Virus record (IMG/VR): IMGVR_UViG_3300027659_000027
Span: 1-64,000 of that record
Origin: a virus
DNA length: 64,000 bases
Strand: one strand, 5' to 3'
The position numbers and the translations under genes are program-made. This document shows positions 9,821 to 57,280 of the stretch, in pieces (within the stretch, counting starts at the first letter, position 1; each line of letters starts with the position of its first letter). The notes under the pieces are model-generated. The model saw only the letters and a program-made list of their open reading frames with translations. It had not been told where the DNA came from and made no database searches.

Positions 9821-9821
9821 C

Positions 9822-13755: not shown

Positions 13756-13760
13756 ACCCT

Positions 13761-13792
13761 AACTGGGGTGACGGTAATGACCGGCCCCAGTT
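13761..13792 (+). terminator. Terminator-like hairpin after rIIB
   Basis: Perfect eight-base-pair stem AACTGGGG/CCCCAGTT with an inner GGT/ACC stem around AATG, six bases past the rIIB stop. It is followed by TACTTAAC, not a T-run, so it may stabilise or process mRNA rather than terminate. It shares loop letters with the hairpins at 6946 and 7835. Confidence 0.5.
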
Positions 13793-13809
13793 TACTTAAC
13801 CCCTAACCT

Positions 13810-15089: not shown

Positions 15090-15657
15090 GGATCAGTACA
15101 TTTGTAATATGGGTAAAGAGGAACTAATAGCAGAACTGCACAGAGAGAACCTCTGTACGTACTTTGTTCTACCGTTGCTTAAACTCAACAAGAGCAGGTT
15201 CGTTGACGATTCCAATTTCATCGACAGCTATATTAACGCTGCAGGTAGTAGTATCTACGTAAAAGTGAATGACCTCACTTTCTTCGAGCACAGAATGGTA
15301 ATGCACCCGCAATACCAGGCTAAGTGGGAAGATAATGAAGGCTTTCAGTACGTAGAGTACAGCATCCCTTTCAATTGGCAGAAGGATATGGCCTTATTCA
15401 TCAAGGGTAAGTACAGTTCTATGTCAGAGGAGGCGAAAATTATGATACGTACTAACTCCGGTTTGCAGTTCAGGGAACGCCGGAAGTCAGACAACATGAT
15501 TATCACTGATGTACGACTACTTGCACTTGACTTAAGTGCAGCTGTTAGAGAGATGTGGGAAGACCACTATGGCATGACGTTACGTAATGACCAGGAGTTA
15601 CTGTCTGTCCCATTGGAGAGATCGTTCATAGAAAGTATACCACTCAACAGAGTGTAA
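15007..15657 (+). CDS. Hypothetical protein ending the replication arm
   Basis: A 216-residue protein that I do not recognise, last gene of the plus-strand arm. The long start at 15007 overlaps the exonuclease gene by 83 bases; an ATG at 15109, 19 bases past the exonuclease stop, gives 182 residues beginning MGKEELIAEL and avoids the overlap. The first 34 residues are Ser-rich and plausible as protein, so I list the longer form but do not exclude the shorter. There are no membrane segments; the region 60-120 is rich in aromatic residues and may be a beta sandwich. A strong terminator follows directly. Confidence 0.62.
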   Translation: MSETHQPLKQEMSSYSINSDGTLSLSHEDQYICNMGKEELIAELHRENLCTYFVLPLLKLNKSRFVDDSNFIDSYINAAGSSIYVKVNDLTFFEHRMVMHPQYQAKWEDNEGFQYVEYSIPFNWQKDMALFIKGKYSSMSEEAKIMIRTNSGLQFRERRKSDNMIITDVRLLALDLSAAVREMWEDHYGMTLRNDQELLSVPLERSFIESIPLNRV

Positions 15658-21223: not shown

Positions 21224-24200
21224 TTAATAATATCCTGTTATTCTCCATGCTGCACCATCATAGATAAATTGAACACAAAGCATAGCTGTACCACTTGTTG
21301 TAGTTGGCAATGCAATAGAACTCGCGACAAACGAAGCACCCCAAGTAATTGCTCTACTTGCTGTTCCGGTCACACATATCAATAGGCTTTGTCCTTCTGT
21401 TGGTGTACCTGATAAGTTTGTTGTGAACGAAGTAATATCTACCGTTTGTGCGGTAAGCGAATATTTGTTTACATTATCAGTATTGATGGTTGGTGTTGCA
21501 GAACTTGTTGTTGTACCTGTACGCATGGTTATGCGCTTGTTGGTAAAGGTTGTTGTTGATGAAGCTGTTGGTACTGGTACCCCTCCTATTGTAATACTTG
21601 TTGCGAAATCAGGAGAAGTTGCCCCGTCAAATAGTAATACACCAGTTCCATTCTCATCAGTTACCGCTGACCGCAAGTTTGCACTTGATGGAGTGGCTAA
21701 GAATGTACCTACATTTGCTGCCGGAGTAATACCTGCCCATGTTGTAAGGTCTGCATCATAAGCCTGTACGTTAGTTCCAATAACCAATCCTAAATCAGTT
21801 CTAACATTTGCTGGGCTTCTATTAATCCAGTCCGTGCCGTTCCATTTTAGCATATCCTCCGTAGTAATTGATGTCAAGTCAACGTCTGTTAACGCAGCGA
21901 AGGTAGTTGCACCTCCACCTGTTGAGGCAATAGTTACTACTCCATTTGCACCTGTTCCTGTTGTGGTTAATGTAATATTGCTACCTTCCACTAATTGTAC
22001 TGATGTACCTCCGGTTAATGTAACAGTATGGCTTGTTGCATCATTGGTATTCGCTAATGAACCTCCGCCTGATATGTTATCCCTTGCCCACTCCCTTGTG
22101 GCTATTGTGTCCCGATTTGAAGTGGATGAATCCACGAACAATAACCCGTCTTTAAAATTAAGTAACCCAGTTTCTGGGGTAGTTGGTAGAACGCTATTGG
22201 TAAACTTTAGCTGTCCTGTACCTGCTGTCGCTGTCGCTGCCCCTATATGCAATTTTGCTGTGGGTGATAAAGTATTAAAAACCCCAACATTGCCATTTGA
22301 TTGCTTTAGAAATAGGGGAACATTCCCTCCTGATTGTTGTATAGTAAAGTCTCCTGACTCACCATATAATTGAGTTACATACCCAAGAGGGTTTTCTAAA
22401 TATAATGTAGCCCTTGTACTTGATGAAGTAATACTGATTCGTGGGTTAGTACCTGAAACGCTAATACCTGTCCCACTTCCTGCGCTATTAATGGAAAGAG
22501 CGTTATTATTCTTATCCCATGTAAGCCCTGCATCTTCTTCATATACGCCTCCATCATTAAACGGAATTCTTGTACTCGTTCCTGATGTTATTGCCGTAGT
22601 TCCAACAGTTATGCCTGATGAGCCACCACCTACTGAATCCTTAAGTCCATATAACACCCCGCCTTTTCTGTACCAAAAGCTATCAACGCCGGGTGTGCGA
22701 ATAATGTCGGTAACAAACGCACCTGTGGTGTCTGATGTATAGGCAATCGTTCCTGTTGCAGCTTGTAGTGTAGCGGTGTAATTAGATGCACCTGCATTTG
22801 CTGTTGAAATAGTTGTAACCCCTGTTGAAGTTCCTTTCATTGCAAGTTTATCTTTATCAAATGTTTTCAACCCTGTTACAGTTTGAACATTTGCCAATAC
22901 CATGTCACCACTACCGCCACTTTGCTGGTCTAACTGGTATCTTGTACTTCCAATAGTACCATAAAAGTGCGTGCCGTCAAATTCCATTGCCCCCGCTTCG
23001 GGAGTAGTAAGGTTTGTTCCGGCTGTAAATTTCAAAGGTGATGTGTTAGCTGTTGCGGAGCCAGCTGCTATGTGTAAGTTGGCGGTGGCATAAGTAGTAC
23101 CACCTAAGAACATCTTACCCTCTTTGTTAATAGATCCCAAATTACTTCCTGTTCCATTAGTCCAACTTAAAATATTTGATGTTGCACCAGTTAGTGTAGT
23201 GCTGGTTTGGAATTTATGGGCAGTATAATTGTTACCGCCATCAGTACCAAATTGGTAAGTCATTCCTGTGGCTCCGTTCATGTTAATACTATTAGCGGAA
23301 AAAGTGGTACCTGTGATAGTTCCTGTTGTTGTTGCACCAGTAACTCGCAACCCACCAAGTGCTCGAAGCGCTGGGCTTACATCATATACTGAACTATTGA
23401 CATTGTAATTAACAACTGGACTGCCAAATTTATTTAGGTATGTGAAATCCCCAGCTGCTATATGTGTAAACAGATTAAAACTGCCAAAACCAGCATCAGC
23501 CTTAGTCTGAGATACTACTGTTGATCCATCTTGCAAGCCAGCATTAATAATTACTTGCTTACCTAAAGTAAGTATTTTCGTAGCCGAATCAAATCTCAGG
23601 CTTGAATCTTGCTGTAAACTATTACTTGCATTTTTAAACAATAGTCCATTTGTTATACCCTGATTTATTGTAGTAGTGCCTACGGTTATGCCGTCAGTTG
23701 TGTACGCTAATGTCTTTCTTGTTCCTCCGCTACCTGTATAGTATAAAGTATCTGCAAGTACTTCTATTGCTCCTGCTTCGGGTGTAGTTAGCAACGCTGC
23801 ACCAGATGTTGTGAACTTCAAAGGTGCTGTACCGGCTGCGGCTGTGCCAGCTTTTAAATGTAGTACTGCTGTTGGCGATGTAGTACCTATTCCCATACCC
23901 GTAGATTTTATATTCACTATGGTTGATGTACCGGTAACTCCTAATTGAAGAGTATTACTTGCTTCAATGCTACCGGTATTGGAACTTGTTGTTCTTGCGG
24001 ATAAGTAAGCACCTGAAATATTGTTATGAATATATAATTGCCCAAAATTATTGCCTGATGTGTTTTCTTGAATAGTCAATCTTGGATAAGTGCCGTCTAA
24101 AAAAATACCATCGCTTGTGGTTGAGTTACGAATCGATAAAGGGTTAGACGGCGTTGCCGTTCCAATCCCCAACCTCTTATTCGTACTGTCATAAAAGAAA

Positions 24201-26599
24201 TCACTATTTTTCTGCTGCAATGTTCCACCCGTACCTGCAAATAATACACTACCTGCCGTTGCTGATGTAATTGCTGTACCAATAGCTAACGAACCTCCCC
24301 CCGTTGCCGTATCTGCATAACTTACTAATCCCGATGTAGGATTGTATCGGAGTGCTTTTGTACCGGGTGCGGAGGTTAGGGTATCGATTTTGAGTGAGCC
24401 TGCATTTGGACTTAACGTTATTGAAGGCTGTGTTAACGTTATTTCTGAACCATTTGTCGTGCCGGTATTAACTGTCGTTAAAAATATATTAGCAGACGAC
24501 GCCTCAATTTTAGCCTCAACACCACTTGATACATCAACAATAGACGTTCCACCTGTTGAAGTTTGTGACCATATATCAAAATTATTCCAATTTATAATAT
24601 TTGTACCACCTTCTATTATGTTACTCCCCGTCAACGTACTACCTGCCGTTAACACTTGCTGCAATGTGGGGGTAGCACCACTTCCTGTGGTTGTGTCGGC
24701 AACACTTAAATTACCGCTTGCATCAATACGAACTGCTTTAGTACCAACGGCGGTGGGTAGGTAAGGCATTATTACTTTACTGTTTAAATATAGCCTTTGA
24801 TTTGCTGCTGTGGCATCTTGTGCGCCGTAGATTATAGAAGCGGTTGTGTCTGCTCCCGCACTACCTCTTTGGATTGAATTTATAAACAAGCTATAAGGGT
24901 TCATTGTTACGGTGTTAAATGCAGCCCTGTATCCTAAAGCTATCCCACCTACCGCTGTTGTTGCATTTTGTAGTGCGCCAAATCCGATTGCAGTATTTGA
25001 AGCAACGCCAACACCGCCGTTTAGTAGTGCGCCTGCACCAAAAGACGAATTAGCCGTATTTGTAGCTGAATTATATGTAGATTCGCCATAACTTGTGGTA
25101 CTCGGCCCAATTCTACCTGCGAATACATTATTTCTTTTAAAAACAACATCCTGTGCATCCGTTGTTCCAACAAAGTCCGTTCCTGCCGTTGTACCACTGT
25201 TTCCTGTAAGCGACCATCCGGAGCCGCCTACTGCACCTTCAATAATATTACCACTTGCGTCTACCTGTAAAGAGTATGTGGCTGTTCCTGTAATAGCACC
25301 AGTTCCATAGCCTTGAGCTTTTATCTTTCTGTTCTTGTAAATAGTGAAAGCGTCTGCCGGTGTAGTACCTCCGTCTTGACTTGAGCCAACATTGAATATT
25401 CTGTCGGTAAGGTTGTTTGCTGACGTGTAATTTGTACCCATAAAACCGATAGCCATTTCGTAATCCGCTCTTGAGTTATTATACTTACCAAATACCGAAC
25501 CCGATTCTCCGTAGGCGTTATTTTGGAAGCCTTGTGCAAATGACCGCTGACCAGCGGTATAATTAAGGTAGCCGGTAGCAAAACTATAATTACCCCCTGC
25601 ATTATGCGCCCCGCCAAAGGCTGCTGACCCAACTCCAGTTACAGCTGAAGCCACAGTTGATAAATCTAAACCAGCTGTTGTAAATGTCGAACCCGCATTC
25701 CTGCTAATATTACCGTTGGCATAGAATAGTAGCCTGGTAGTATTATTCGTTTTTATTGCATAGTCGTAGTTATCAATCGTACCAGTCCATTTGCCGTTAG
25801 ACCCAACTGTGTTACCCGTTAACCCCCAACTTGTGTCAGACCTTGCTGCCCATGAAGTAACACCATTACCATCTGTTTGTAGAACTTCATTTGCTGCACC
25901 ACCTGTTGTTGGTAAGGTCATTGTCCATGTACCTGCTGTTGTAGCTGGCTGAACAGTTACTGTCCCACTTGTAGATCCTAATAACTTTAACACACCCCTG
26001 TTATTCCCACTGTAACCACCACCGCCTAATACCAAAGAGCCTTGATATGTGTTAAGCCTAACATCTCCAGCGTATGAATGAATAGCTATATTAGCTGCCG
26101 TACCTTGTGAAGCACTTGCATAAATACCAACATTTGTTGTATTAACGCCTAAGTTATTATTCACAGCCCTAAAAGCTGTAGCAGAACCATTATCCACAGT
26201 AGTTCCCATTGTACTAAGACTAAGTATCCCAGCACCATTTGCCATTGATGGGGCATTACTATTCATAGTTAACCCAACGCCTGTAGATAAAGTATTCCAA
26301 CTCCAAATTTGCCCAAACCCTGCATTATTGATTGTATTTGTTGCTGTTGCTGCTGTAAGTGCCGATATAGGTAAAGAAGAAGTTTTTGGCCAGCTTGTAG
26401 ACTTTCTTAAATTACCTGAACTGTCCAGTAATGCCAGCTTGTACAATGTAGTATCACTAACTGACGCAGTATTTTTCACTCTGAGCTTTCCTTGTACCTC
26501 AACAGTATTTGCTGAGTTACCAATTGACTGGGTTTGCCCCAGTACTGTGGCTGATATAAGTACCATCAGCGTGGCCAATGTTAGTTTTATTGTCTTCAT
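21224..26599 (-). CDS. Giant exported fibre/adhesin-like protein with modular repeats
   Basis: A 1791-residue protein. It begins with a Sec signal peptide (KTIKLTLATLMVLISATVLG|QTQS), unexpected for a virion fibre assembled in the cytoplasm. Residues about 320-387 and 513-563 hold YadA-head-like left-handed repeats (GSAAFGG, YSFATGY, RSFAQGF, TAIGFGAL, GIALGYRA). Three long modules at about 816-940, 1040-1200 and 1370-1490 share the blocks LGIGTATPS, LHIAAG...PLKFT and TTPEAGAIE seen in Bacteroidota surface proteins and phage fibres. The C-terminal 150 residues form a Thr-rich beta domain ending IYDGAAWRITGYY; I see no S74 chaperone motif. It is a trimeric adhesin or fibre, either displayed on the infected cell or used by the virion; topology is unresolved. 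Confidence 0.75.
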   Translation of the reverse strand: MKTIKLTLATLMVLISATVLGQTQSIGNSANTVEVQGKLRVKNTASVSDTTLYKLALLDSSGNLRKSTSWPKTSSLPISALTAATATNTINNAGFGQIWSWNTLSTGVGLTMNSNAPSMANGAGILSLSTMGTTVDNGSATAFRAVNNNLGVNTTNVGIYASASQGTAANIAIHSYAGDVRLNTYQGSLVLGGGGYSGNNRGVLKLLGSTSGTVTVQPATTAGTWTMTLPTTGGAANEVLQTDGNGVTSWAARSDTSWGLTGNTVGSNGKWTGTIDNYDYAIKTNNTTRLLFYANGNISRNAGSTFTTAGLDLSTVASAVTGVGSAAFGGAHNAGGNYSFATGYLNYTAGQRSFAQGFQNNAYGESGSVFGKYNNSRADYEMAIGFMGTNYTSANNLTDRIFNVGSSQDGGTTPADAFTIYKNRKIKAQGYGTGAITGTATYSLQVDASGNIIEGAVGGSGWSLTGNSGTTAGTDFVGTTDAQDVVFKRNNVFAGRIGPSTTSYGESTYNSATNTANSSFGAGALLNGGVGVASNTAIGFGALQNATTAVGGIALGYRAAFNTVTMNPYSLFINSIQRGSAGADTTASIIYGAQDATAANQRLYLNSKVIMPYLPTAVGTKAVRIDASGNLSVADTTTGSGATPTLQQVLTAGSTLTGSNIIEGGTNIINWNNFDIWSQTSTGGTSIVDVSSGVEAKIEASSANIFLTTVNTGTTNGSEITLTQPSITLSPNAGSLKIDTLTSAPGTKALRYNPTSGLVSYADTATGGGSLAIGTAITSATAGSVLFAGTGGTLQQKNSDFFYDSTNKRLGIGTATPSNPLSIRNSTTSDGIFLDGTYPRLTIQENTSGNNFGQLYIHNNISGAYLSARTTSSNTGSIEASNTLQLGVTGTSTIVNIKSTGMGIGTTSPTAVLHLKAGTAAAGTAPLKFTTSGAALLTTPEAGAIEVLADTLYYTGSGGTRKTLAYTTDGITVGTTTINQGITNGLLFKNASNSLQQDSSLRFDSATKILTLGKQVIINAGLQDGSTVVSQTKADAGFGSFNLFTHIAAGDFTYLNKFGSPVVNYNVNSSVYDVSPALRALGGLRVTGATTTGTITGTTFSANSINMNGATGMTYQFGTDGGNNYTAHKFQTSTTLTGATSNILSWTNGTGSNLGSINKEGKMFLGGTTYATANLHIAAGSATANTSPLKFTAGTNLTTPEAGAMEFDGTHFYGTIGSTRYQLDQQSGGSGDMVLANVQTVTGLKTFDKDKLAMKGTSTGVTTISTANAGASNYTATLQAATGTIAYTSDTTGAFVTDIIRTPGVDSFWYRKGGVLYGLKDSVGGGSSGITVGTTAITSGTSTRIPFNDGGVYEEDAGLTWDKNNNALSINSAGSGTGISVSGTNPRISITSSSTRATLYLENPLGYVTQLYGESGDFTIQQSGGNVPLFLKQSNGNVGVFNTLSPTAKLHIGAATATAGTGQLKFTNSVLPTTPETGLLNFKDGLLFVDSSTSNRDTIATREWARDNISGGGSLANTNDATSHTVTLTGGTSVQLVEGSNITLTTTGTGANGVVTIASTGGGATTFAALTDVDLTSITTEDMLKWNGTDWINRSPANVRTDLGLVIGTNVQAYDADLTTWAGITPAANVGTFLATPSSANLRSAVTDENGTGVLLFDGATSPDFATSITIGGVPVPTASSTTTFTNKRITMRTGTTTSSATPTINTDNVNKYSLTAQTVDITSFTTNLSGTPTEGQSLLICVTGTASRAITWGASFVASSIALPTTTSGTAMLCVQFIYDGAAWRITGYY
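22140..24160 (-). repeat. Modular protein repeats inside the giant adhesin-like gene
   Basis: Three to four copies of a protein module, each with an LHxxAG block, a PLKFT block and a TTPEAG or TTPETG block, separated by roughly 265-275 residues. Approximate copy positions of the LHxxAG block are 22205-22265, 23030-23090 and 23815-23880; a diverged copy (LSIRNS) lies near 24120-24150. The repeats are recognisable in protein but diverged in DNA, so they are old duplications or independent acquisitions rather than recent copies. Confidence 0.7.
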
Positions 26600-28102: not shown

Positions 28103-31100
28103 TTAGTGACCTATGTCCATCAAGTCTTTACTGGTCATGTAATCGAACTTACTGATGTTGGACAGACCCGGTCCAAGCTTAGCTGTACGCTTCCACAGTT
28201 TTTCGTACCTCTTCGGGTCATCTCCTAACAACTTGGCAGAAGCCTTCAGCAACTTGAACGCATCAGTAACCACAGTAAGGCATGGAACCGGGTTTCCAAG
28301 TACAGTATCGAACACGTCAGGGGATGCGTACAAGGTAAGATCCTGATAGTTCCTGGTCAGTAGGTTCACAAACATCCTTAACTCTGCAGGTGTTGAACTC
28401 AATCCTGCTCTTCTGCGGCGCTTTTTTTCCTCCTCATCAGGGCTTAGCAGGGCCTTCATAGTAAGAATAGCTGTAAGGAAGCCTATGGTGAAGGCTATAC
28501 CTGACAGGTTTTTACGCATGTTCTCCTTATCCATATCCGATATTGGCTCTCTCTTCCTGTCTTTAACATCAGCAAAGGCATCAAGGCTGACACCGGGTAA
28601 GGCACTCAGCACTTGCTTAATAAGTACAAAGCCAGAGTTCAGAATACCCAGATCAGCTATCGTCCTGTACCTGCCCTTTACATCTCGGTCAAGTCTAACA
28701 TCGAAACGCTTGTCCTGAAACCTTGTAGCAATACCTTCAGGTAACCAGCTCATACGAAACTGACCGATCATTCTCCACATTACGTTCTTACGGGCCATCA
28801 GTTTGGAGTTAGCATCCTGATTACCGAATACCAGCGTACTTACAGCTTTGGTCTTGGTACGAAACTTGACCCAGCTCTTCTGTTTGTCTGCATCCTCTGA
28901 CTGCCAGGTATCGTCAATACCGAACCTCTCTGCATTCCAGTCGCCTTCGCTGTTATGAGCATCCCAAAGAGAGATTTCTTTCTCCACTCCGTCCTCTGTT
29001 ACCTTTACCATCTTGTGTTTCATCATAGCTATCATCATCATACCCTTGGTGAAATAGTCACCAGAAAGCTGCCAGTTCAAGGGCATCACAGCCTTGGCTA
29101 TCGACTTTTTCTTCATGGTGTCAATGTTGGACTCACCGTGCAGACTGCTTTGTACTTCGTTAATCAGGTTCATCCTGAGCATCAGGTTGAATATCTTGGC
29201 TGCTGCTTTGTCTTGTCCGAATGCACCAAAGGTTAGCCACTTATGTTGAGCATGCCGCATCTCATGCATAGCCTGACGAGCAGTTTTGTTGGTATAGTCC
29301 ATTCTTCCGTTGGCGTGTATCATCACTGAGATCATACCGAAGGTGAAGTTGGTTATGGCAGCAAACGGGTTGAAGGCAAGGGCTCTCAGCTGGTTAAAGC
29401 TTATTAACATGTCAGCAGCCTTGCTTCCAGCAAAGTACCGGCCGGATGCTGTGATTTCTTCGATACGCTCTTCAATCTTAGTAAGCCTGTCATCTTCCTC
29501 GATAGTCATGACTTCCACTCCACCCTTCATCTTTTCCCACAATTTCTCCCGTTCTTCTATCAAGTCTTTGATCTCGTTGGATAACTTCTTGTGTTCTTTT
29601 CTGCTGGAAGAGTATATGGCCTCATTGCTTACAGCCTGAGCTTGCTTATCGTTACCAAAGAACACCGACTTCTTCATGAACTCGATAGCCTCTATGGTTT
29701 TGGTAAGTGCTGGCCCTTTCTCCGGATCTTCCAGTCTTGCCTTGTTAATGCTCTTGATAAGAGCCTCACCTACATTTACGGTATCCAGGTGCTTACTCAT
29801 GTGCTTATGGCGAATAGCCATTCTTGAGAATTGCTCCATGGTGTGCAGTAAGTTTTTACTCCACCCGGCTACCTGCTCCTGACGACGTAAAAGCTCTTCT
29901 TCTTTCAGGTTGTAGGACTTGCCAGTGTTAATGAATGCCAGAGGAATCTCGTCTTTATTGGTTTTGTAGTTTTTCTCATAGTGGCTAACTGTGGAAGCCA
30001 TGAACCCTCTGTTCAATAAAGATTTCGGCTTAAGCTGCCCTATCTTACCCATTAAGCTGGCTGTGACTTCTGCTGTAACTGATGGAAGGAAGCTTGTGTC
30101 CATCTTGTCAGTTACGTGCGTAGGCAAACCATCTAACAACTCATCACGTATTGCTATGAACTCCTCGAAAATGGCCGCCTTTGTGATTACAGTCGCATCC
30201 TTGTTGGCAGTAGCCATTATAGCTTTGTGCTTAGCATCGTAGAAAGCATCGTTACTTAACCTTGGGGCTTTAACAGTGAACCTGGAGCTACCAAACCCTG
30301 AGGTAGAGTTATTGGCAAGTTTGGACTCAAAGAACAGGTTAGGGGATTCGTAACTGTCCCACTTGTCCTTCTCAGCCTGTATCATCTTTTCAAGTAGCTC
30401 ATTCTCTCTGGTAGTTCGTATGTCGTATTGCTCCTGCGGGGCCAACAACAGCTCCTCAGCTGTAAGTACCACCGCTGCTTTTTCCTCTTCAGTTAACTCA
30501 TTTGCCTCAAAGTTCAGGAACGCAGCCTCTTTTGCATCCAGGTACTTTTTGTACTGCTCTCCGGCTTCTTCTATCAGTTCCTGAGCATGCTCTTCAGACC
30601 CCACCTGCTGTACAAGGTATGCCATTTCAGTATCTACAGTTGTACCAGACATGGCCTCTCCTGTTTCTATATCAAAGAAGATGCGGGTATCAACAAATAC
30701 CGCTGCAGTACTAAGGGCTTTCCAGTACCTGGCATATACAGCAGCTGATGCCTCTCTCCTTTTATCAGGATCCTTTATACCTTTGGCCTCTTCCAATCTG
30801 TATTCAAGGGTAGACTCCAACTTGTTGATGTGTGAGAACCACTCTGGCGAGTATCTTTGTACAAAACCATGAGCGGTGTCATCCTTGTTCTCCTGCATGA
30901 ATTCTTTGTACAAGCCCGGTAACCCTCTTTGCCCAACTAACTCCTCCATCTTTGTCTTCAATGCCTCAAGCCTGGTGGCATACTTACGTATTTCACCATC
31001 ACTATTCTCTGCAGCTATGGTACCAAGTACTCCAATAGTTGCTGTGAGCTTGCTCTCTGCTCTGGCAAGTGTTAAGAAAAGCTGTGTACCTGAGAACATC

Positions 31101-34100
31101 TCCTTAAGGCTCTTGTCGTAATCTTCAGGGGAAAGTGCTATGTCATAGTTACCAGCCATTCTTGTGAATACTTCTTGAGCCTTTCCTGCGAACTCACCAC
31201 TACGGAGTCCACGAGCATCTCTCATAAGTTCTCCAAGCTCTGCGTTATAGCTTGCAACATCTGTCTCTCCTCCGTACACCAAGTCAATCACTGTAGACCA
31301 GATGTCTAATATGTTCATAGCTACCATGATCTCCTGAGGAGTAGGGCTGTCTTTAGCGATAATGCTTTTGGCCCATGCCAATTGCTTAATGCCCACCTCT
31401 GATACAGCCTCAAGTTGGTTTTCATGTAGCAACTTATTGATGTCCTCGCTAACTTCACGGCGTTTAGCCTTTATATTCTGGTACAATTTTTTGCCCTCAT
31501 CTGTTGTAGTATTAACTCTGTTGGCAAGTGCATTAAGTTCTTTCTCTTGTACCTCAAGCTTATCTATTATCTTCTGCACGTCCGTCCTTACAGGAGCTGT
31601 TGGAGCAAGTCCGTGCTTAAAAGCTGACTTCATAACAATATGAGTTCCCTCACTGGAGATCTTCACTTCTTTGTTGTAAGACTCTTCCAGTACATCTTTG
31701 ATGGTGTTGGCATACCTTTCGGTCTCGAACTCCAACGTAGTGTCCTGCTCTATTGCAGTCTGTACACGTACTGTTGTATCCCGGTTGCTGTTGAGAGTAG
31801 CAAGTTTCAAAGAGAGTGTGATAGCTTCTTTCAAGGCACTACCGTCACGAACCTCCACACCCAGTGTACGTGCAATGCTGTCAAGTACTGCAGTTAATGC
31901 ATCCCATATTGCTTCCATAAGTGTGCGCTCACCTTTCACCTGTACAGTGTTAAGGAATGCAGCGACCTTCTTATTGGTAAGGCTATATGAGATCAGCTCG
32001 TCCACACTGGACAGGGCGTATAGATTCAAATGGTCATCCGTAGTAATCTCATTGTTCGCAACGTCAGTCATGATCTTGGCAAAGGCTTCTTCCCCTTGCT
32101 CCAGGATAACACGAGCACGTAACTCCACCAGAGCCTGGTACCTTATAGAGTCAAGCTTACCAAGGATCTTTTCTACCTCCGGGTACTTGTTGTTGAACTC
32201 ACCGATGCGGGCTATTACTGCGGCTTTCTGTGCAGCAGTAATGTTCCTGTATATAGCCGGGCTGAACCCAGACATCATTACTAATCCTCGGGTACGGTGG
32301 TGAAGCATTTCGTGTAGTAATGTCTCAGCGGCTGAGTTGCGATCACCGTTAGCCTTGTTGAGTGTAAGCCTGCTTTTGTTCAAGTCATAAGTACCATCCA
32401 TATCTTTTGTTGCTTCGTATGCGACCTCGAAGTTCTCCGGTGTTGCATCAGCAAATGTGGCTCTCAGGCCATCATAGGCGAAGTCAATTTCTGAAGTAGA
32501 CCCAAGTACACGGGCAACTGTACGTAACGATTCAGGCATACGGTCATCATTTGCCACAGCGCTCAGCATCTGGTGGGCAACCTCTATTCCTCCACCCTCT
32601 TTAGGCATACCAAAGTTTTCGTAGGCGTTCTCTTTATTCTCCATACTTTCAGTAAGGTCGTTTACCTGCTGGGTAAGTGCGGCTATAGGGTTTGTTGGGG
32701 CTATCTTTACTGCTGCTGCCCTGTTCTCTTGAAATATAGATCTTGCTCCCGACACTGCACCGTTATACTCATCAGTATTCGTGTTACCGAGCGTGTCAAT
32801 TCTCTTGTAAGTACCAAAGCCTGATCTCTTGTACAGTATACGCTTACCATCTGCTGAGGAGTTGTAGGAAAGGTACATAGGGTATGCGTAATCTCCTTTA
32901 GAGTCTGCTATAACCATACGTTTATGCTCAATATTCGAGGGGTACCCCTTAAAGTCGATAGGACTGAGTGAGAACACTTCGTCGAAAGTAACCGAGTCAG
33001 CGTGGAATACACTGTCATCAACCTGCATTGCACTATCCGGGAAATGCTGGAAGAACTGCTCCATGAAGGTAGACGAGTTACCGTATATGTTTATGTTTTC
33101 CTCAGCCACCCGAAGTTGCCTGGTGAACTCACTGTCTATCAGGTATGACAGTGGTATCTTCGACAGGAATGAACTTGCGTCCATGTTACCACTGGATAGG
33201 TAGGCGTATCGTATAAGGTCTTCAGCAAGTATCTTCACATCTCTGTCAGTTGAGCTGAGCATCTCCATGAAGGAAGACACGTTCATGTTCTCATCATAGG
33301 TCGCTGCTTTGGCAGAGTTGAACCCAACAAAGTCAGGACTCTGAGAGGTAAACCCAATCTGCGGATCCAACCTTTGCATGAAGTAACTGGTAGCACCCCA
33401 CGTAAGCTTGGCCTGTGCAACTCTTTGCGCCAGTGATGGGCCATGTATGTTGTACATAAGCCTCAACCTCTCCCCTGAGGCGTCAGGCCACAGGGTATGA
33501 ATGGAAGAGTATACGTAAGAGCGCATAGACTTTATAACTTGCTTCTGCAAGTCTATCGGCAGCTGGGTCTTACCCGTCTCTGCGCGTAACCTATCGAACA
33601 GGGAGTTCTTTTCCTTGTTGGGTACCAGAGACTGGTAAGGAAAGAATTGCCCTACCAGGTTTACTGCCGTGTACATCACCGTTGAGAAGGTCTTTGCCTG
33701 CTCAGTACCATTAGCAAGCTCTACCTCACCAAGTATACCGGTCTCTATCTTATCGTTAAACAGGTTCTGGTACTTTGTAACTTTGTCGGCCGCAGCAAGG
33801 AATCCTGGCCCGGCGCCTTTGGTGTCCTGGTTGAAGATGGACTGCAGCTCGGTCATTCTCGTACCGGCGCGATCCAGCTTCTCGAATGTAAGCAGAATTG
33901 CCAGTTGCCCTTTGTCTGTGGGGCGGTTAACCTCAGCAAGTAAGCTTTCCGGTGTAAGCTTGAACTCACTCAATACTTTCTTGGTAACGTAATCCAGTTC
34001 GTCCTCATTGTAATCCCCTGCCTCTTCTCCGCTAAGTACCTTCATGATAAGGGGCCTTTTCAGTTTCTCGATCACTGACTTCTTCAGATCTGGCTCGAAC

Positions 34101-37100
34101 ACTTCGCTCAAGCTATCATTACCGTCAGCCATCAACCGGGAGAACTTGCGTATCACCGGGGATGTCAGCATTCTGGTAGCGTACCTTAAGTCTACGGCTT
34201 CTGGTTTGCCGTCACTACTCTCCAACATCATCAGTGCTGCAACAGCCTTGTACGTGTCAGGGGTTAAGTTCAGGTTATCCAGTGATCTATCCTTGGCGTT
34301 ATCCACTGCAGCTGACTGCAGGGTGGTAAGGTTATCATGCTTGGTACGTACTTCGTACTCTCCCTTGGAGTTCTTGTACAGGCTGGTGGCATACCCTGAC
34401 AGTTTGTTCAGGTGGATAGGTGTACCATCTTCTTTGTGTAACGTGATACTGAACGGCTTGTCCTTGGTGCCTACGAAGTTTCCTTCAGTATCATACACAG
34501 CCTCCTTGTTGCCCAGCTCCAATGCCTTATCCTGTATCACAGAGTTGAAGGTAACCGATAGCGAAGTAAGACCAACAAGCGTCTTAGCGTATTTACCACT
34601 CTGAAAGTCAGATAGTTGTGTGGTTACGTTGAAGTAGTTATTGAATCCTGACTCCTTAGGCTTCAGCAAAGTGTTCTCGTTCTTAATGTCCTTCTTGTCC
34701 AAAGGATTGAGTACCTTGTTGTAAACATCCTTGTGGGTAAGTACCGCCCAATGTACATCAAAGTACTGACCCTTAAGCTGTGCGTCTGTAGGTTTTGGCA
34801 GCGCTGCCAGCTTGCTTAAACGCTCAGCATGAAAGGTGTCAATCTTACTTTCGAGCTCTGGTGTCTCCACCAAGTTAGCCGGTACATCCTCTATCGCTTC
34901 TATTCCATGAAGCTTTGCGAAAAACTGCTTAATAGATGTCTCACGGGTGCGATCAGCATTGTCGGTAGGGGCACCCGTGAAGGTGTCCACTACGAACTTA
35001 CCATCGACCATCTTGTACGGTCTCTTGTAAGTGTAAAGCTTATCCACGTCAAAGTCAGCTCCCATCTGCTTGGTTATAGCAGAAGGTACAATCATCAGGT
35101 CACCCATGCTTGCTGGCGTAAATCCGACGATCTCAATGGCGAGCATGGAGTTATGCCCCTGATTCGGGATACGGGCACCAACGAGCTGTAATAGCTCCAC
35201 AGGTACCTTTTTCATGTCGAGTGTCTTACCGTCTTCCAGTAAGTAGTCTTTTATGTTCGCAGGAACCCATTTACCGGTCTCGTCCTGTATGGTGAATGTG
35301 AATGGCGCTATCACCTGAGCCGGGATAACTGTACCGTCTTCGAGCACCTCCATTGTTTTCAGCGGAGTAGAGGCGTCATAACCATTGGCGTAGACTATAC
35401 CACCACGCTCCTCCTCTGTAAGCTCCTGCATCTGCCTCATCTTATTTTTGCCTACATATCCAACACTTGCTGCCTGTACGTAACTCTTACCTGGCATCTT
35501 CACGTCTACGATGGTCTTGATCATTGACATTAGTGTACTCTCAAACTTCTCGGCAGCCGAAGAAAACATCAAAGGTATCTCCAGTTCCCCTTTATCATTT
35601 CGATACACCAGTGCTGAGATCTCGTTCTCCGAGAACCCACGGTCGCGAGCCTCCTGTATAAGCCTCTCAAGTACTTTGGTCTTGTCAACAACCTCACCAT
35701 CTTTGTAGTTCATCTCTTTGGCGAACTTCTCGAAGTTTCGGTTGATGAGATCCATGCGGATACTCTCCTTATACTTTCTCAAGGCTGCAGCATTCATCAT
35801 ACGACCACCTACATTAAACTCAGCTCCGGGCAATGCTGCCAGGCTCTCTGTGATTAGCTTGTTCATCTGAGACAGGGTCTTGATAGCTTCCTTGGTCTCG
35901 TCGTAAGGTATCTCCTGCTGTATACGCAGACCACCTCTGTCAAGTACATGAATGGAGTCTTTCCACTGCTTATCGTCGAAGTTTCCGCCAAGGTATTTAC
36001 CCTCAGGGCTGAACAGTACCATCTGTGTGGTAGGGTTACCCAGCTTCTTGGATGACCCGTGAGGAGCTCTCGCTATACCATGCTTCTCCATATCTCTCCT
36101 CAGTCCATCTATCTCGAAGTTTTTAGTAAGCGGAGGATATAGTGGGTATGAAGACGACTTGATGTAGTCATGGAACTTTGTACCACGATCTTCGGGCCTC
36201 ATAGCCACAAACACAGGCTTGGCCGGCTGCATGATAACAGCGATATGGTCTGCCTTCTCGAACTCATAGTACCCGTCAGGTTTCTTCTCACCCTCCTCAA
36301 CAATCACCATCATCTCTTTGTACAAAGCCTCTTGTATCTTACCGCCTGCGAACAGCATCTTCAAGTGTTCACGAACTGTGGTTAACTCCTGAGCATCTGT
36401 GGCATCCACCTCTTTATAGGCTTTCTGCAGCTTACTGTTCTCGGTAAACCTGTCTATGTAATTCTCGTCAGTAACCACATCGGCTATAGTGATCGTGTTG
36501 TACTTAGTATCCTCCCAAGCCATGTCCTGACCGGGTGCTATGTCCTTTGCCAATCTCTTGGAGTACTCCTGATACGTGGCATTTACCAACGTCAGTGACT
36601 GTCCGGCTTTAAGTACTTTCTCTCCTTTGGTATTCTGCTCAAGCTGAGAGTCTTTGAACTTTGCTGCCTGAGCAGGGTCACCGTAGGCAAGCTGGGCCAT
36701 AGAGGTATTAACCAGGAAGTAGTTTAGCGAAAGGTCTCTGGCGGCGGTCTTCACCACCATGTCGTATATTTCCCGCTTACCCATCTCCTCTCCATCAATT
36801 GTCCACTTTCCTTTGCTCTTCTTGATATTGTTGTAGCTACTGTTCTCCATCAGCTTCTTCACATAACTGCTGTCAAAGCTGTATGTAGCTTTACTCTTGT
36901 TAGTTATGCCAGCATCCTCCCACTTAGCCACAGTGTCCATCGTCATCTCTTCAATGAAGTGATTGAGCATGGCAGATATAACCTTCTTTGCCTTATCGCC
37001 AATATCATTGGTGATCTCACGATTGTTACCTTCCCCTACCCACAATGTCGCTATATCCTTCTCAGTCATAGCTCTCGGGGCTCCAGTGTCACCGAAGTTC

Positions 37101-40100
37101 ATCACTGTGCCGGCGTTCATGGTTTCCACCATAGCTTCGTAATTGAACTGAGGAAGGGTGAAGAATAGCTTCTTGCCTATGTTGTACTGACCATGGTCGA
37201 AGGTTACGTTCCAATGTTGGCGTATCCTTTCCCACTCTGCGAGGAACACGTTCTCTACTGCCTCGAATGCATTATCGTTTAGAGTGCTTGCACCACCTGT
37301 TACAACCTTAGGGAAATTGGTGAACACAGGGGTCATCGTTTTATCCGAGTGTGTCAGCGACATGTAGTGCGCTGTATCCTTATTACGATTCTGGAATAAC
37401 CCGATAGCCATCAGCATCTGCTCTCTATCTGACATGGCTGTACGCACGATACCTTTGGTGGTACCTACACGCCTGAGACCATCCATCATCATCATCCCGG
37501 CTGCTTCCCGGTTACCTGCCTTCCATGTGTTAAGCAGGAAGTTATTCTTGGCGAAGTGTACCTTGGACATCTCCTCGTACATAGCATCGAACTCAGTCTG
37601 CGTCTCGGGCAACAGCTCCTTCATGCGAAGTGACAGTGCGTTGTTCAGTGAGTAGTCATATATGGTCTTGCCTTCTGAGTTCCTGTGTGAAGGTGATGTG
37701 AGTAGGTCTGTGTGAGCTGCTGCTACACGAGCAAGTATTTTTACTGCAGTACCATCAGTGTACAGCGGGTTGCTGACAGTACCTGCACGTCTTTCACTTT
37801 CGTCGCCGATCATGCTTGTCTGCTGGTCGTAATTTTTATTCCATCCAGCTGCTTTCCAAACCATTGACGAGAACATACCAGTAGGTACTCCGTACTTATC
37901 AAAAGCAAACTGTCCGGCCATGGTTGCTGTTTGGTACCTGGTGTTCTTGGTACGCGTAGCTATATTGTCGAACAGATCTTCCAGCATTGCCGGTGTGAAT
38001 TCTATTCCGTTCAGGGCCATGAACTCAGCGACGAACACCTTCATGTGAGCCAGTGGATCCTTAGTGAAGGCCACAAAGTCTACGTTGGGGTCTGCTGCCT
38101 TAAGCTGCTCTGCCATCTCTGCACCAAGAACGCCCAGCGCTTCTCTTGCATCGTTTATCTTCTCTTCGCTGTTGTTCTTGTTCCCCATGATGTCCACCAG
38201 TGTTGGGTACTTATTGAGCATCATGTCAAAGACACGTACCCACGAGGCATACTTGCCTTGTACCTTCTCCACATCCATCACACGTTCACCACCTACCACT
38301 TTCATAATGGCGGAGTTCTTCTGCGCTTCCTGCCATCCCTTGATCATGTGTTGTACTTGCGAGCTCCGGTTGGCTTCAAAGGGGTTAAGTATCCACCTGA
38401 ATGTACCATCATCCTGCTTGATAGAGTTGAAGGTCATCATCAGGAACTGCTGGTAGTGAGTGCTCATTACCTTCACGAACTCATTGCGTTGGCTCTGGTC
38501 TGCCTCCTTAAGCATTCTGGCTACTGTCAGGTACATAGGATTGGTCTTGGCAGCTGTACGTAGCTTGGCATCGTATGATGCGAAATCACGCTTGCTATCA
38601 GCCAGCAGGCCCATCACCTTCTCATAGGTGTCATCGAAGTTTAGCATCTTTGGGAACCCGAGGTGGTTGAGTACCTTGATGGGTACTTCCGAACCGGGCT
38701 CATAGCTTGTATCTTCTACGTTGGCCATGAATAGCTTAAGCTTCCACGAGGCTGTATCCCTCGGGTCAAGCTCAAACACCATGTCGTTATAATCTCTCAG
38801 AGCCGTGCCCTCCTCTAAGGAGAACTCGTCCTCTGAATCATCTTTCATTTTCATGTCTACGCTGCCGTCTACAACCAGCAGGTCTTCGGTAAGTTGGGTG
38901 GTCACCTTACCGTCGATTATCCTCTTGGCAGCGTACTCCAGTCCTTTCAGGACGGCCTTGGTGTTCTTCACGCCTAAACCATAGCGCTCCAGGTTCTGGA
39001 TAACAAGGCCGGCAATTGACTGCACGCCCTTAGCCTGGTCAAAGGCAAAGCTGTTCAGCACTTCCATGATGGAGTCCGCCTGCTCTGTCTTTCCATCCGC
39101 ACGGAACTTATCCGCCTGTACCTTCATCCTGTACATGGTTTGCTGGAACGCCTCACTGATCTTGGTACCGGGAAACTTGGTGACAATCTTGTACACGAAC
39201 CACATGGCTGTGTCCACTGCAGCAATCTGCTTCTCAGTGGTAAAGTTCCCAATCTGCTTACCCTCTGCGTTCATGATTGGTACGAAGAGCTGGTTGAGCT
39301 GCTGCTTCATAGCAGTACCGCGCATGTTCTGCAGCATACGTGCAATCTGATCCTCAATGGTGAAATCCGCTGCATACCTTGACGGTTGTGCGTTGAAGGT
39401 CTCCAGAAAGGAATCAGAGAAGGTGATGTTTGGAGCGGACTCACCAACACTTTCGAACATAAGAGCCATCTCTATTGCTGTGTACCCGTTCTCGAACCGG
39501 TGCTTGTCGTTCAAGCTCTGGTAAGGTATGTGGTACTCGGTTGTAGGGTTGGCCTTGGCTTCAGCGATGAGGTCACGGATCTCTGCTTCCATCGACTCAG
39601 CGTCCATGCGAACACCTTTGCGGCTGCTCACTGACTCGCCAATAACACGTATCTCTTTGTGGAGGTATTCGGCTGGGGATGGTTCTGCCTCCTCTTTTTC
39701 CTTTTCAGCTTTTACTGTAACCCGTGGAGCATCCCCCGTATGGTATATCGTGAACGTAGCCCCTATTTCCACCAAATAGTCGATGAATTGACTATCCACA
39801 TCGGGCATGTCGCCAACTACAAACTTAACTCCCTCTTTGTAAAAACTCTCTATGACAGCCTTTGTGTCATCATGCAGAGGCTTCCCTTTGAGGCTCCCGT
39901 TTCTGGCGAGCATCATAACCTCTGGAGGTGCAGCTTCGTTTGAAACGCTGTACTTAGCTTTCCCCTCCTCATGAAGAGATGGGTATTCCCTTAGTGATGT
40001 CAGGCTGGAGCTTGGTGTTGTTTTACTCAGCTCCACGATAGCCCCCTGAGCTACTCCTCGCATCGCCATATCTTTATGGTCTCCCGTTGGCGTTCCCTTT

Positions 40101-40768
40101 CCTGTATTTTTAAAGCCACCTTTGTACCCTAAGAAGCCGTATACCCCCACCTTTGGGGCTGATGCAGGTTTCTTATTCTTCTTGTTCTGCTCTGCCCAGT
40201 AAAGTTCTCCTTCAGTCCTGGGTCTGGTAGCCTCGTGCTCCTCGTTCTGCACAAGGGCCTTATCGAGTATAGCCTTACGTTGTACCTGTGAGCTGTTGTC
40301 AGCTCCTGTGTAAACATCCTTTCCTGTTGCCAGTGATATGATCCTGCTCTCAGCGGATATGACGTAGTCGGTACCGTTGTACTCCACAGTACTTAAGTTA
40401 CCCTCTACTCTTACGTTCTTTGCATCGGGAGTACCAGAGTAATTAGTTCCCTCCATGGTGATAAGCTGAGCTTTACCGGAAGGGTTAATGCCCTTGAGGA
40501 TGTATCGTGTATCCTTGTACACAATCAGCGCACCCGGTGTAAGGGTAAGGTTATCCTCAGATACCCGAGATTGTGGGGTTACGTTCTTTCCTCTCATCAC
40601 TTGAGCCATAGTAGGCTCTCCGTTCACATCGAACTCGGTATACTCTGCCATGTGTGCAGTGGCGTAGTTCCACATCCTGGCCGTTACATCAGGGCCATAC
40701 TGTTGCAGCAATGCTGCGGCTAAAAGGGACTTCTCGTTGTTAGGAGCAAGATAGTTACAAACTGCCAT
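28103..40768 (-). CDS. Giant virion RNA polymerase fusion protein with zincin motif
   Basis: A 4221-residue protein. Residues 1860-1909 follow the second double-psi barrel of two-barrel RNA polymerases: RIPNQGHNSM, then GADFDVDKLY with metal-binding Asp1905, 1907 and 1909, comparable to RxPTLH...NADFDGD of bacterial beta' and to the crAss-like virion RNA polymerase (phi14:2 gp66, about 2180 residues). Near residue 318 lies VGDMPDVDSQFIDYL in a Rossmann-like N-terminal domain. HEMLHH at 2819-2824 is a zincin-type HExxH metallopeptidase motif. Residues 3250-3700 are coiled-coil rich, and hydrophobic stretches occur at about 3795-3815 and 4088-4108. Such proteins are packaged, ejected with the DNA and transcribe early genes. 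Possible processing by the zincin part is inference. Confidence 0.85.
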   Translation of the reverse strand: MAVCNYLAPNNEKSLLAAALLQQYGPDVTARMWNYATAHMAEYTEFDVNGEPTMAQVMRGKNVTPQSRVSEDNLTLTPGALIVYKDTRYILKGINPSGKAQLITMEGTNYSGTPDAKNVRVEGNLSTVEYNGTDYVISAESRIISLATGKDVYTGADNSSQVQRKAILDKALVQNEEHEATRPRTEGELYWAEQNKKNKKPASAPKVGVYGFLGYKGGFKNTGKGTPTGDHKDMAMRGVAQGAIVELSKTTPSSSLTSLREYPSLHEEGKAKYSVSNEAAPPEVMMLARNGSLKGKPLHDDTKAVIESFYKEGVKFVVGDMPDVDSQFIDYLVEIGATFTIYHTGDAPRVTVKAEKEKEEAEPSPAEYLHKEIRVIGESVSSRKGVRMDAESMEAEIRDLIAEAKANPTTEYHIPYQSLNDKHRFENGYTAIEMALMFESVGESAPNITFSDSFLETFNAQPSRYAADFTIEDQIARMLQNMRGTAMKQQLNQLFVPIMNAEGKQIGNFTTEKQIAAVDTAMWFVYKIVTKFPGTKISEAFQQTMYRMKVQADKFRADGKTEQADSIMEVLNSFAFDQAKGVQSIAGLVIQNLERYGLGVKNTKAVLKGLEYAAKRIIDGKVTTQLTEDLLVVDGSVDMKMKDDSEDEFSLEEGTALRDYNDMVFELDPRDTASWKLKLFMANVEDTSYEPGSEVPIKVLNHLGFPKMLNFDDTYEKVMGLLADSKRDFASYDAKLRTAAKTNPMYLTVARMLKEADQSQRNEFVKVMSTHYQQFLMMTFNSIKQDDGTFRWILNPFEANRSSQVQHMIKGWQEAQKNSAIMKVVGGERVMDVEKVQGKYASWVRVFDMMLNKYPTLVDIMGNKNNSEEKINDAREALGVLGAEMAEQLKAADPNVDFVAFTKDPLAHMKVFVAEFMALNGIEFTPAMLEDLFDNIATRTKNTRYQTATMAGQFAFDKYGVPTGMFSSMVWKAAGWNKNYDQQTSMIGDESERRAGTVSNPLYTDGTAVKILARVAAAHTDLLTSPSHRNSEGKTIYDYSLNNALSLRMKELLPETQTEFDAMYEEMSKVHFAKNNFLLNTWKAGNREAAGMMMMDGLRRVGTTKGIVRTAMSDREQMLMAIGLFQNRNKDTAHYMSLTHSDKTMTPVFTNFPKVVTGGASTLNDNAFEAVENVFLAEWERIRQHWNVTFDHGQYNIGKKLFFTLPQFNYEAMVETMNAGTVMNFGDTGAPRAMTEKDIATLWVGEGNNREITNDIGDKAKKVISAMLNHFIEEMTMDTVAKWEDAGITNKSKATYSFDSSYVKKLMENSSYNNIKKSKGKWTIDGEEMGKREIYDMVVKTAARDLSLNYFLVNTSMAQLAYGDPAQAAKFKDSQLEQNTKGEKVLKAGQSLTLVNATYQEYSKRLAKDIAPGQDMAWEDTKYNTITIADVVTDENYIDRFTENSKLQKAYKEVDATDAQELTTVREHLKMLFAGGKIQEALYKEMMVIVEEGEKKPDGYYEFEKADHIAVIMQPAKPVFVAMRPEDRGTKFHDYIKSSSYPLYPPLTKNFEIDGLRRDMEKHGIARAPHGSSKKLGNPTTQMVLFSPEGKYLGGNFDDKQWKDSIHVLDRGGLRIQQEIPYDETKEAIKTLSQMNKLITESLAALPGAEFNVGGRMMNAAALRKYKESIRMDLINRNFEKFAKEMNYKDGEVVDKTKVLERLIQEARDRGFSENEISALVYRNDKGELEIPLMFSSAAEKFESTLMSMIKTIVDVKMPGKSYVQAASVGYVGKNKMRQMQELTEEERGGIVYANGYDASTPLKTMEVLEDGTVIPAQVIAPFTFTIQDETGKWVPANIKDYLLEDGKTLDMKKVPVELLQLVGARIPNQGHNSMLAIEIVGFTPASMGDLMIVPSAITKQMGADFDVDKLYTYKRPYKMVDGKFVVDTFTGAPTDNADRTRETSIKQFFAKLHGIEAIEDVPANLVETPELESKIDTFHAERLSKLAALPKPTDAQLKGQYFDVHWAVLTHKDVYNKVLNPLDKKDIKNENTLLKPKESGFNNYFNVTTQLSDFQSGKYAKTLVGLTSLSVTFNSVIQDKALELGNKEAVYDTEGNFVGTKDKPFSITLHKEDGTPIHLNKLSGYATSLYKNSKGEYEVRTKHDNLTTLQSAAVDNAKDRSLDNLNLTPDTYKAVAALMMLESSDGKPEAVDLRYATRMLTSPVIRKFSRLMADGNDSLSEVFEPDLKKSVIEKLKRPLIMKVLSGEEAGDYNEDELDYVTKKVLSEFKLTPESLLAEVNRPTDKGQLAILLTFEKLDRAGTRMTELQSIFNQDTKGAGPGFLAAADKVTKYQNLFNDKIETGILGEVELANGTEQAKTFSTVMYTAVNLVGQFFPYQSLVPNKEKNSLFDRLRAETGKTQLPIDLQKQVIKSMRSYVYSSIHTLWPDASGERLRLMYNIHGPSLAQRVAQAKLTWGATSYFMQRLDPQIGFTSQSPDFVGFNSAKAATYDENMNVSSFMEMLSSTDRDVKILAEDLIRYAYLSSGNMDASSFLSKIPLSYLIDSEFTRQLRVAEENINIYGNSSTFMEQFFQHFPDSAMQVDDSVFHADSVTFDEVFSLSPIDFKGYPSNIEHKRMVIADSKGDYAYPMYLSYNSSADGKRILYKRSGFGTYKRIDTLGNTNTDEYNGAVSGARSIFQENRAAAVKIAPTNPIAALTQQVNDLTESMENKENAYENFGMPKEGGGIEVAHQMLSAVANDDRMPESLRTVARVLGSTSEIDFAYDGLRATFADATPENFEVAYEATKDMDGTYDLNKSRLTLNKANGDRNSAAETLLHEMLHHRTRGLVMMSGFSPAIYRNITAAQKAAVIARIGEFNNKYPEVEKILGKLDSIRYQALVELRARVILEQGEEAFAKIMTDVANNEITTDDHLNLYALSSVDELISYSLTNKKVAAFLNTVQVKGERTLMEAIWDALTAVLDSIARTLGVEVRDGSALKEAITLSLKLATLNSNRDTTVRVQTAIEQDTTLEFETERYANTIKDVLEESYNKEVKISSEGTHIVMKSAFKHGLAPTAPVRTDVQKIIDKLEVQEKELNALANRVNTTTDEGKKLYQNIKAKRREVSEDINKLLHENQLEAVSEVGIKQLAWAKSIIAKDSPTPQEIMVAMNILDIWSTVIDLVYGGETDVASYNAELGELMRDARGLRSGEFAGKAQEVFTRMAGNYDIALSPEDYDKSLKEMFSGTQLFLTLARAESKLTATIGVLGTIAAENSDGEIRKYATRLEALKTKMEELVGQRGLPGLYKEFMQENKDDTAHGFVQRYSPEWFSHINKLESTLEYRLEEAKGIKDPDKRREASAAVYARYWKALSTAAVFVDTRIFFDIETGEAMSGTTVDTEMAYLVQQVGSEEHAQELIEEAGEQYKKYLDAKEAAFLNFEANELTEEEKAAVVLTAEELLLAPQEQYDIRTTRENELLEKMIQAEKDKWDSYESPNLFFESKLANNSTSGFGSSRFTVKAPRLSNDAFYDAKHKAIMATANKDATVITKAAIFEEFIAIRDELLDGLPTHVTDKMDTSFLPSVTAEVTASLMGKIGQLKPKSLLNRGFMASTVSHYEKNYKTNKDEIPLAFINTGKSYNLKEEELLRRQEQVAGWSKNLLHTMEQFSRMAIRHKHMSKHLDTVNVGEALIKSINKARLEDPEKGPALTKTIEAIEFMKKSVFFGNDKQAQAVSNEAIYSSSRKEHKKLSNEIKDLIEEREKLWEKMKGGVEVMTIEEDDRLTKIEERIEEITASGRYFAGSKAADMLISFNQLRALAFNPFAAITNFTFGMISVMIHANGRMDYTNKTARQAMHEMRHAQHKWLTFGAFGQDKAAAKIFNLMLRMNLINEVQSSLHGESNIDTMKKKSIAKAVMPLNWQLSGDYFTKGMMMIAMMKHKMVKVTEDGVEKEISLWDAHNSEGDWNAERFGIDDTWQSEDADKQKSWVKFRTKTKAVSTLVFGNQDANSKLMARKNVMWRMIGQFRMSWLPEGIATRFQDKRFDVRLDRDVKGRYRTIADLGILNSGFVLIKQVLSALPGVSLDAFADVKDRKREPISDMDKENMRKNLSGIAFTIGFLTAILTMKALLSPDEEEKKRRRRAGLSSTPAELRMFVNLLTRNYQDLTLYASPDVFDTVLGNPVPCLTVVTDAFKLLKASAKLLGDDPKRYEKLWKRTAKLGPGLSNISKFDYMTSKDLMDIGH

Positions 40769-56605: not shown

Positions 56606-57280
56606 TTAGAATGGTTTAGGCTTTAGGGTTTCCGGATCTTCTGATACGGGTACTTCAGTAGAGGCTGGTACTATGCCTCTGTTGTAATCAATTTGCAGTA
56701 TGCTCTGAATGATGAGCTGCATTATATCCCCGGTAACCGGGTACTCCTTGTTGTAGAAGTCGCAATCGGTAGAGTTACCGAGGTCACAGTTAAGCTTAGC
56801 TGCTTCTTCAGGATTGTCAAATATGCCCTCAACACGAAGCATTGGTAAGTGCTGGTTACCATACACCCTAACATTTATAGAGTCCCATGTGTACCTTATC
56901 ACTTTCTTTGAGTACTTACCTTCCTGCATATACGTCATAAACCCGGAAGGGGTCTCTTGAAAAGGGTTCATACCATTCACTGATCCAACATAATCGAATA
57001 AGATTGCATTTGCCCTTAGTGGCTTTGGCAGTGGAGACTTGGTAATAGATATAGCGCACCCTGGAAAAGAAGTACAGCATGGTACCTCAGAGGTCTCCTC
57101 CATTGGGATAAACACCGTCTGGCGGAAGAACTTCCTCTCCCGTTGGTCTTTATCCACGGAGTTCTTGATCAGCCTCGAACGCCATATATGTATGCGCTCT
57201 ATAAGCTGCAGTTTGAATGGAATGTCCAGCTCTTTCTTAAGCTGCCCGGCAATAAGGGTAGTGGCTTCGTTTAGGGTCAT
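56606..57280 (-). CDS. Tail ring or connector protein
   Basis: A 224-residue protein that opens the tail gene run after a terminator. The N-terminus is helical (TLIAGQLKKELDIPFKLQLI), followed by SVDKDQRERKFFRQTVFIPM, a pattern I associate with crAss connector proteins, and a strand-rich middle with several Cys (VPCCTSFPGC). The C-terminus is Pro/Glu-rich and probably flexible. Likely part of the ring stack between portal and muzzle. Placement is good, subunit identity is uncertain. Confidence 0.66.
   Translation of the reverse strand: MTLNEATTLIAGQLKKELDIPFKLQLIERIHIWRSRLIKNSVDKDQRERKFFRQTVFIPMEETSEVPCCTSFPGCAISITKSPLPKPLRANAILFDYVGSVNGMNPFQETPSGFMTYMQEGKYSKKVIRYTWDSINVRVYGNQHLPMLRVEGIFDNPEEAAKLNCDLGNSTDCDFYNKEYPVTGDIMQLIIQSILQIDYNRGIVPASTEVPVSEDPETLKPKPF

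Follow-up and report, generated by a model that had tools for sequence, protein, structure and literature searches.

The window analysed here (64,000 nucleotides of a linear IMG/VR virus record of 76,024 bases) encodes, in one chain, what is by homology a crAss-type virion RNA polymerase core, a zincin domain and a helical C-terminal part (C-part). We consider it probable (roughly 0.6) that this giant protein is an ejected early-transcription polymerase carrying a protease domain that becomes active once delivery has taken place. Each module has homologues, the zinc site is conserved, and the C-part has been repeatedly fused or split amongst the relatives.

Layout of the giant ORF and its phage

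A single open ORF of 4221 codons with an ATG start occupied positions 28103-40768 on the minus strand. The 4221-residue chain described in an earlier note on this DNA was therefore upheld, since the ORF was open throughout and joined a polymerase to a true zincin domain. The motif positions given there also stood, with DFDVD at residues 1905-1909 and HEMLH at 2819-2823, followed by H2824. The features discussed below are as follows:

28103..40768, minus strand: whole ORF, giant virion RNA polymerase-zincin-helical tail, 4221 aa
36755..40768, minus strand: N-terminal region, residues 1-1338
34634..36754, minus strand: RNA polymerase core, residues ~1339-2045, by homology to phi14:2 gp66 / PDB 6VR4
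35042..35056, minus strand: DFDVD catalytic loop, residues 1905-1909
31781..32593, minus strand: zincin domain, residues ~2726-2996, with three strands, the HEMLH helix and the E2924 helix
32300..32314, minus strand: HEMLH, residues 2819-2823, by conservation, with H2824 directly after
31997..31999, minus strand: E2924, predicted third zinc ligand, by alignment conservation
31595..31780, minus strand: linker, residues 2997-3058, mostly low-confidence (disordered) in models
28106..31594, minus strand: C-terminal helical subunit, residues 3059-4221, homologue of crAss001 gp49, the phi14:2 gp65 C-part and Fpv20 gp34
28445..28501, minus strand: conserved hydrophobic helix, residues 4090-4108
29252..29266, minus strand: HEMRH, residues 3835-3839, a chance HExxH kept in 1/28
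56606..57280, minus strand: tail ring protein 2 (Pfam CrAss_Ring_2), marking the phage as crAss-related

With the whole chain as query, no Pfam match rose above the cut-offs, and the only PHROGs match, phrog_16227 ('virion structural protein' family), covered the polymerase core. Within the N-terminal region, residues 506-845 weakly matched Fpv20 gp33, and no Pfam domain was found in residues 101-400.

The tail ring protein was identified through its CrAss_Ring_2 match (Pfam, E = 3.6e-15), and the major head protein of this phage is related to phrog_11589. A midpoint-rooted RNAP tree placed the window on the Fpv20 side, not on the phi14:2 / crAss001 side. Elsewhere in the window, positions 21224-26599 encode a 1791-aa protein with repeated Gly/Thr-rich segments and a signal-like N-terminal stretch, which resembles a tail fibre or adhesin and had no Pfam match above cut-off.

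The RNA polymerase core

Core residues 1445-2045 matched PDB 6VR4, the phi14:2 polymerase gp66 (E = 5e-16). A PDB sequence search with the core returned three sequences at E <= 1, no N4 or T7 chain among them, and 139 of 50,697 phage records, phi14:2 gp66 included, matched it. The T7-like single-subunit core that is the hallmark of N4-type enzymes was not found in the window protein, whose core matches 6VR4; instead, its DxDxD loop lies within a core homologous to phi14:2 gp66, the arrangement that defines crAss-type virion RNA polymerases. Judged by its sequence, the core is a polymerase of this type.

A profile-guided scan of IMG/VR confirmed at least 485 related stretches, the best 80 of which form loci L012-L091. 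An ORF with the DxDxD motif was present in 79 of these best 80, and in 63 of those 79 loci an HExxH followed 700-2300 residues downstream.

A conserved zincin domain with a predicted third zinc ligand

HExxH alone is weak evidence for a zincin because 144 of 2000 shuffles of the giant protein contain one. The chain has a second such motif, HEMRH at 3835, missing from the earlier note; we rejected it as a second zincin and regard it as a chance motif, as the window protein itself is the only one of 28 aligned proteins to keep it. Conservation, in turn, is why HEMLH at 2819 was judged real. The zincin alignment comprised the window and 57 IMG/VR loci (six further loci were omitted as near-copies or odd cases), and its rows were chosen for HExxH, so that conservation of HExxH within it is circular. 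Position 2924 was E in 55/58 and D in 3/58 of the aligned domains, followed by F or L in all 58; with named phages added, it was E in 69/74. When loci were searched with a profile of the domain in place of the motif, the profile itself having been built from HExxH-selected rows, 68 of 71 full-length zincin domains kept HExxH. The remaining three (L024, L032 and L058) have lost the first catalytic His (EExxH or KExxH), at two places on the RNAP tree, indicating that the domain can be maintained when catalysis is lost and that it may serve a structural role. The aligned domains are only 12-32% identical to that of the window protein. Against Pfam, the zincin alone hit DUF6782 ('putative metallopeptidase', E = 0.009) without reaching the cut-off of that family.

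A model of residues 2711-3040 (mean pLDDT 84.1, pTM 0.80) showed a three-stranded sheet flanked by helices, with HEMLH and E2924 on separate helices. This is the arrangement of the polyvalent-protein zincins (MPTase), in which HExxH lies in the first C-terminal helix and a Glu of the second is a predicted ligand. The check for a third ligand proposed earlier thus yielded a predicted one, E2924, conserved and helical in the model. Together with the fold and the profile link to N4 described below, it places the HEMLHH motif in a true zincin domain, and we conclude that HEMLH at 2819 belongs to a real one.

Against a viral structure library, the model had 12 matches at E <= 0.001, including large polyvalent proteins and phage internal core proteins, followed by an N4-like virion polymerase (1.5e-3), a crAss protein annotated 'RNAP associated protein fused to zincin protease' (2.9e-3) and phi14:2 gp65 (5.4e-3). 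Fold matches in the PDB were weak and comprised many zinc peptidases (best Foldseek E = 0.12); by VIA, the best were lethal factor (Z = 6.8) and, at Z = 5.8, residues 2124-2348 of the N4 vRNAP 9pnt, both scores falling below the level that excludes a common arrangement. Profile-profile comparison with the N4-like zincins gave a Prob of 97.6 (E = 3e-12). The crAss-type zincin profile found N4 (1e-9), FBKp27 (4e-9), crAss002 gp32 (9e-14), cr110_1 gp39 (4e-14) and KpV41 gp45 (5e-11). The MPTase domains of phages and conjugative elements are the same domain by profile and model, and internal virion proteins such as KpV41 gp45 carry it too; unlike the zincin of the window protein, neither kind is fused to this type of polymerase. 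A tree of the zincins alone was poorly resolved (14/69 inner branches starred) and gives no direction of domain transfer between N4-like and crAss-like phages.

Four loci (L013, L016, L022 and L044) had more than one zincin in the polymerase chain or neighbouring genes, or an additional partial domain at another point of that chain. Five others (L068, L071, L078, L088 and L090) had HE[AG]FH motifs 1300-1670 residues upstream of DxDxD, resembling a motif near the end of crAss001 gp47, and these loci may carry a second type of zincin upstream of the core.

The C-terminal helical part

Residues 3001-4221 are homologous to the chain ends of relatives with the one-chain form and to genes lying separately downstream. 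The C-part profile matched Fpv20 gp34 (1e-56), crAss001 gp49 (9e-56) and the rest of phi14:2 gp65 (1e-51). These homologues were reached by the profile route only; the C-terminal 1522 residues as query had no match in phage records or viral contigs. The model of the C-part was helical (pLDDT 78), and its PDB matches were helical bundles with a best Z of 8.5, within the chance range, N4 being absent from the matches listed. Comparison by sequence with the N4 C2 helical domain found no homology (hhalign Prob 0.1).

This region had been described as coiled coil plus membrane-type segments, of which a predicted helical tail and one conserved hydrophobic helix were borne out. That helix, residues 4090-4108, gives the highest hydropathy in 25 of 28 aligned proteins, the window protein included, and has counterparts in phi14:2 gp65, crAss001 gp49, crAss002 gp33 and Fpv20 gp34 (the second-highest peak there). 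Multiple membrane segments were rejected, as the other hydrophobic stretches tested were not conserved. The helix may insert into a membrane or may be buried.

Recurrent fusion and fission amongst relatives

We labelled 84 rows by gene arrangement, comprising the 80 loci (the best 80 of at least 485) and four named phages; five labels were set by hand, and the zincins of L031, L046, L047 and L071 and the degenerate domain of L032 were detected only with profile filters off. A core-zincin protein followed by the C-part as a separate gene was found in 52/84 rows, and the one-chain arrangement in 15/84, some one-chain and incomplete rows extending past the ends of their loci. Nine rows had a core and a separate C-part with no zincin in the locus (loci were cut at ~10 kb flanks), two had the core separate from a zincin-C-part gene, and six were incomplete or unclassed. 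On the RNAP tree, the one-chain state required at least nine changes, five of them forced by well-supported branches, and the window grouped with three other one-chain rows (L012, L013 and L017). The one-chain form is not known to us from any cultured phage.

Among 44 split relatives, 22 had a first gene that ended 101-162 residues past the ligand E (equivalent to ~3025-3086 in the window protein), in a zone that adjoins the low-confidence stretch 2997-3058; in the other 22 it ended further on. Distances for RNAP, zincin and C-part were correlated (0.54, 0.65 and 0.48; 0/499 permutations as high) across 50 of 58 rows, eight being left out for a missing or doubtful C-part. The three parts therefore share a history.

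These counts do not bear out the earlier view of the fusion as exceptional. An HExxH 800-1000 residues past DxDxD in chains of 3000-5400 residues is common in the clade, and a public crAss record is already labelled 'putative RNAP associated protein fused to zincin protease'. The parts are therefore known, as relatives carry the same ones, often as separate genes. The phi14:2 polymerase had likewise been put at about half this size, which is true of gp66 (2180 aa); it seemed so because its zincin and C-part form the next gene, gp65. What the present analysis adds is the predicted third ligand, the recurrence of the one-chain order, the homology of C-parts across split and fused forms, and a link, by profile comparison, between the zincins carried by two unrelated polymerases. 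Our literature search, which left aside the 2018 and 2020 papers on crAss-like transcription, found no paper joining crAss-like phages, a zincin and RNA polymerase, and the papers that pair crAss with a zincin did not seem, judged by title and opening of the abstract, to concern such phages; the one-chain form may nevertheless have been published.

Comparison with named phages

In Cellulophaga phage phi14:2, gp66 is homologous to the core and gp65 carries the zincin (9e-23) and C-part; unlike the window protein, these are two genes with the boundary between core and zincin. In the Flavobacterium phages Fpv20/FpV4 (Fipvunavirus), gp33 unites core and zincin in one 4419-aa chain, which aligned with window residues 1450-3021, core through zincin (E = 3e-53). 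Its C-part homologue, gp34, is a separate gene, however, and the region ahead of the core is far longer. The Bacteroides phages crAss001 (gp47, gp49 and gp50) and crAss002 (gp32 and gp33) have the core, the C-part and a zincin, and crAss002 gp33 (4245 aa) combines, in a single chain, the core motif with the hydrophobic helix near the C-terminus, but the zincin closes another protein (gp47 and gp32, respectively) and does not lie behind the core as in the window protein. In cr131_1 (L008), the cargo genes at 5091-15379, read with table 11, contained 11 and 24 in-frame stops, a pattern that a recoded genome would produce.

Coliphage N4 gp50 is, as is probable for the window protein, an ejected giant polymerase, and it has a homologous zincin straight past the core and then a helical domain of ~1100 residues. 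According to the literature, the N4 core is T7-like and unrelated to that of the window protein; the C-terminal domains of the two lack a sequence link.

Probable virion delivery and possible function

A database record states the presence of phi14:2 gp65 and gp66 in virions by MS/MS. Passages of PMC10172136 report crAss001 gp47, gp49 and gp50 in virions by mass spectrometry and propose, as a model, ejection in a partly unfolded state. For N4 vRNAP, the order N-terminal domain, polymerase, zincin C1 and helical C2 is given in part of PMC12633501, and N4-like polymerases are described as always zincin-fused in a section of PMC5512222.

We propose that the window protein unites an N-terminal region, a putative two-barrel core, a putative gluzincin-type metallopeptidase domain and a helical RNAP-associated subunit that is the next gene in most relatives. 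H2819, H2823 and E2924 are the predicted zinc ligands and E2820 the predicted general base. The chain would probably be packaged and ejected unprocessed, and in the host it would refold and its core would transcribe early genes. Least certain is the final step, in which the zincin may be an active peptidase in most lineages and may act after delivery on a host protein or the ejection apparatus, not on its own chain before packaging.

Alternatively, the zincin could cut its own chain at the linker (~2997-3058), either ahead of packaging or once ejected, and so release the polymerase from the C-terminal subunit, in which case the split relatives would represent the same cut made genetically. A low-confidence linker between two modelled domains is consistent with this, as is the end of the first gene at about the equivalent place in half of the split relatives; in addition, phage P1 DdrB is processed and bears such a zincin-type domain (passages of PMC5512222), and the N4 C-terminal domain lowers transcription, so that its release could activate the enzyme (part of PMC12633501). 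However, the zincin is kept in the 52 rows in which the C-part is already separate and no cut is needed, the other 22 of the 44 split genes end elsewhere, Iyer and colleagues describe N4 vRNAP as packaged unprocessed (same passages of PMC5512222), and PMC12633501 states 'no evidence of degradation' for the full-length recombinant enzyme. Because split relatives keep the zinc site, and given these N4 reports, self-cleavage before packaging is argued against as the main function. Self-processing is thus rather unlikely, and its earlier placement near residue 2800 is not favoured; if the chain is cut at all, the disordered stretch ~2997-3058 is the likelier site.

It is unlikely that the zincin fold serves for structure or packaging, with catalysis incidental or lost. 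The three domains without the first His, at two places on the RNAP tree, fit such a role, and the zincin-containing region of N4 vRNAP is needed for encapsidation (an excerpt of PMC5512222), but HExxH in 68/71 domains and an acidic ligand in 58/58 represent more retention of the zinc site than the fold alone needs, as the domains are so divergent from that of the window. Quite improbable, in our estimate, is that the zincin and helical C-terminal domain form a polymerase-independent ejection module that became joined both to the T7-like polymerase of N4 and to the unrelated two-barrel polymerase of crAss-like phages, and that works a single time, following injection, by freeing or activating the polymerase. 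It is barely credible that a helical protein contains HEMLHH by chance and that the 4221-residue chain arose through misassembly: HExxH does arise in shuffles, and HEMRH at 3835 is indeed chance, but the third ligand and modelled fold rule out the former, and the independent contigs L012, L013 and L017, with the same one-chain order, the latter.

Under the reading we prefer, an ejected polymerase whose protease domain acts after delivery, a homologous zincin sits at the same place in two unrelated injected polymerases. The one-chain form and its split relatives make a natural comparison that shows which junctions need no protease, and this comparison defines the zinc site (H2819, E2820, H2823 and E2924) and the linker (2997-3058).
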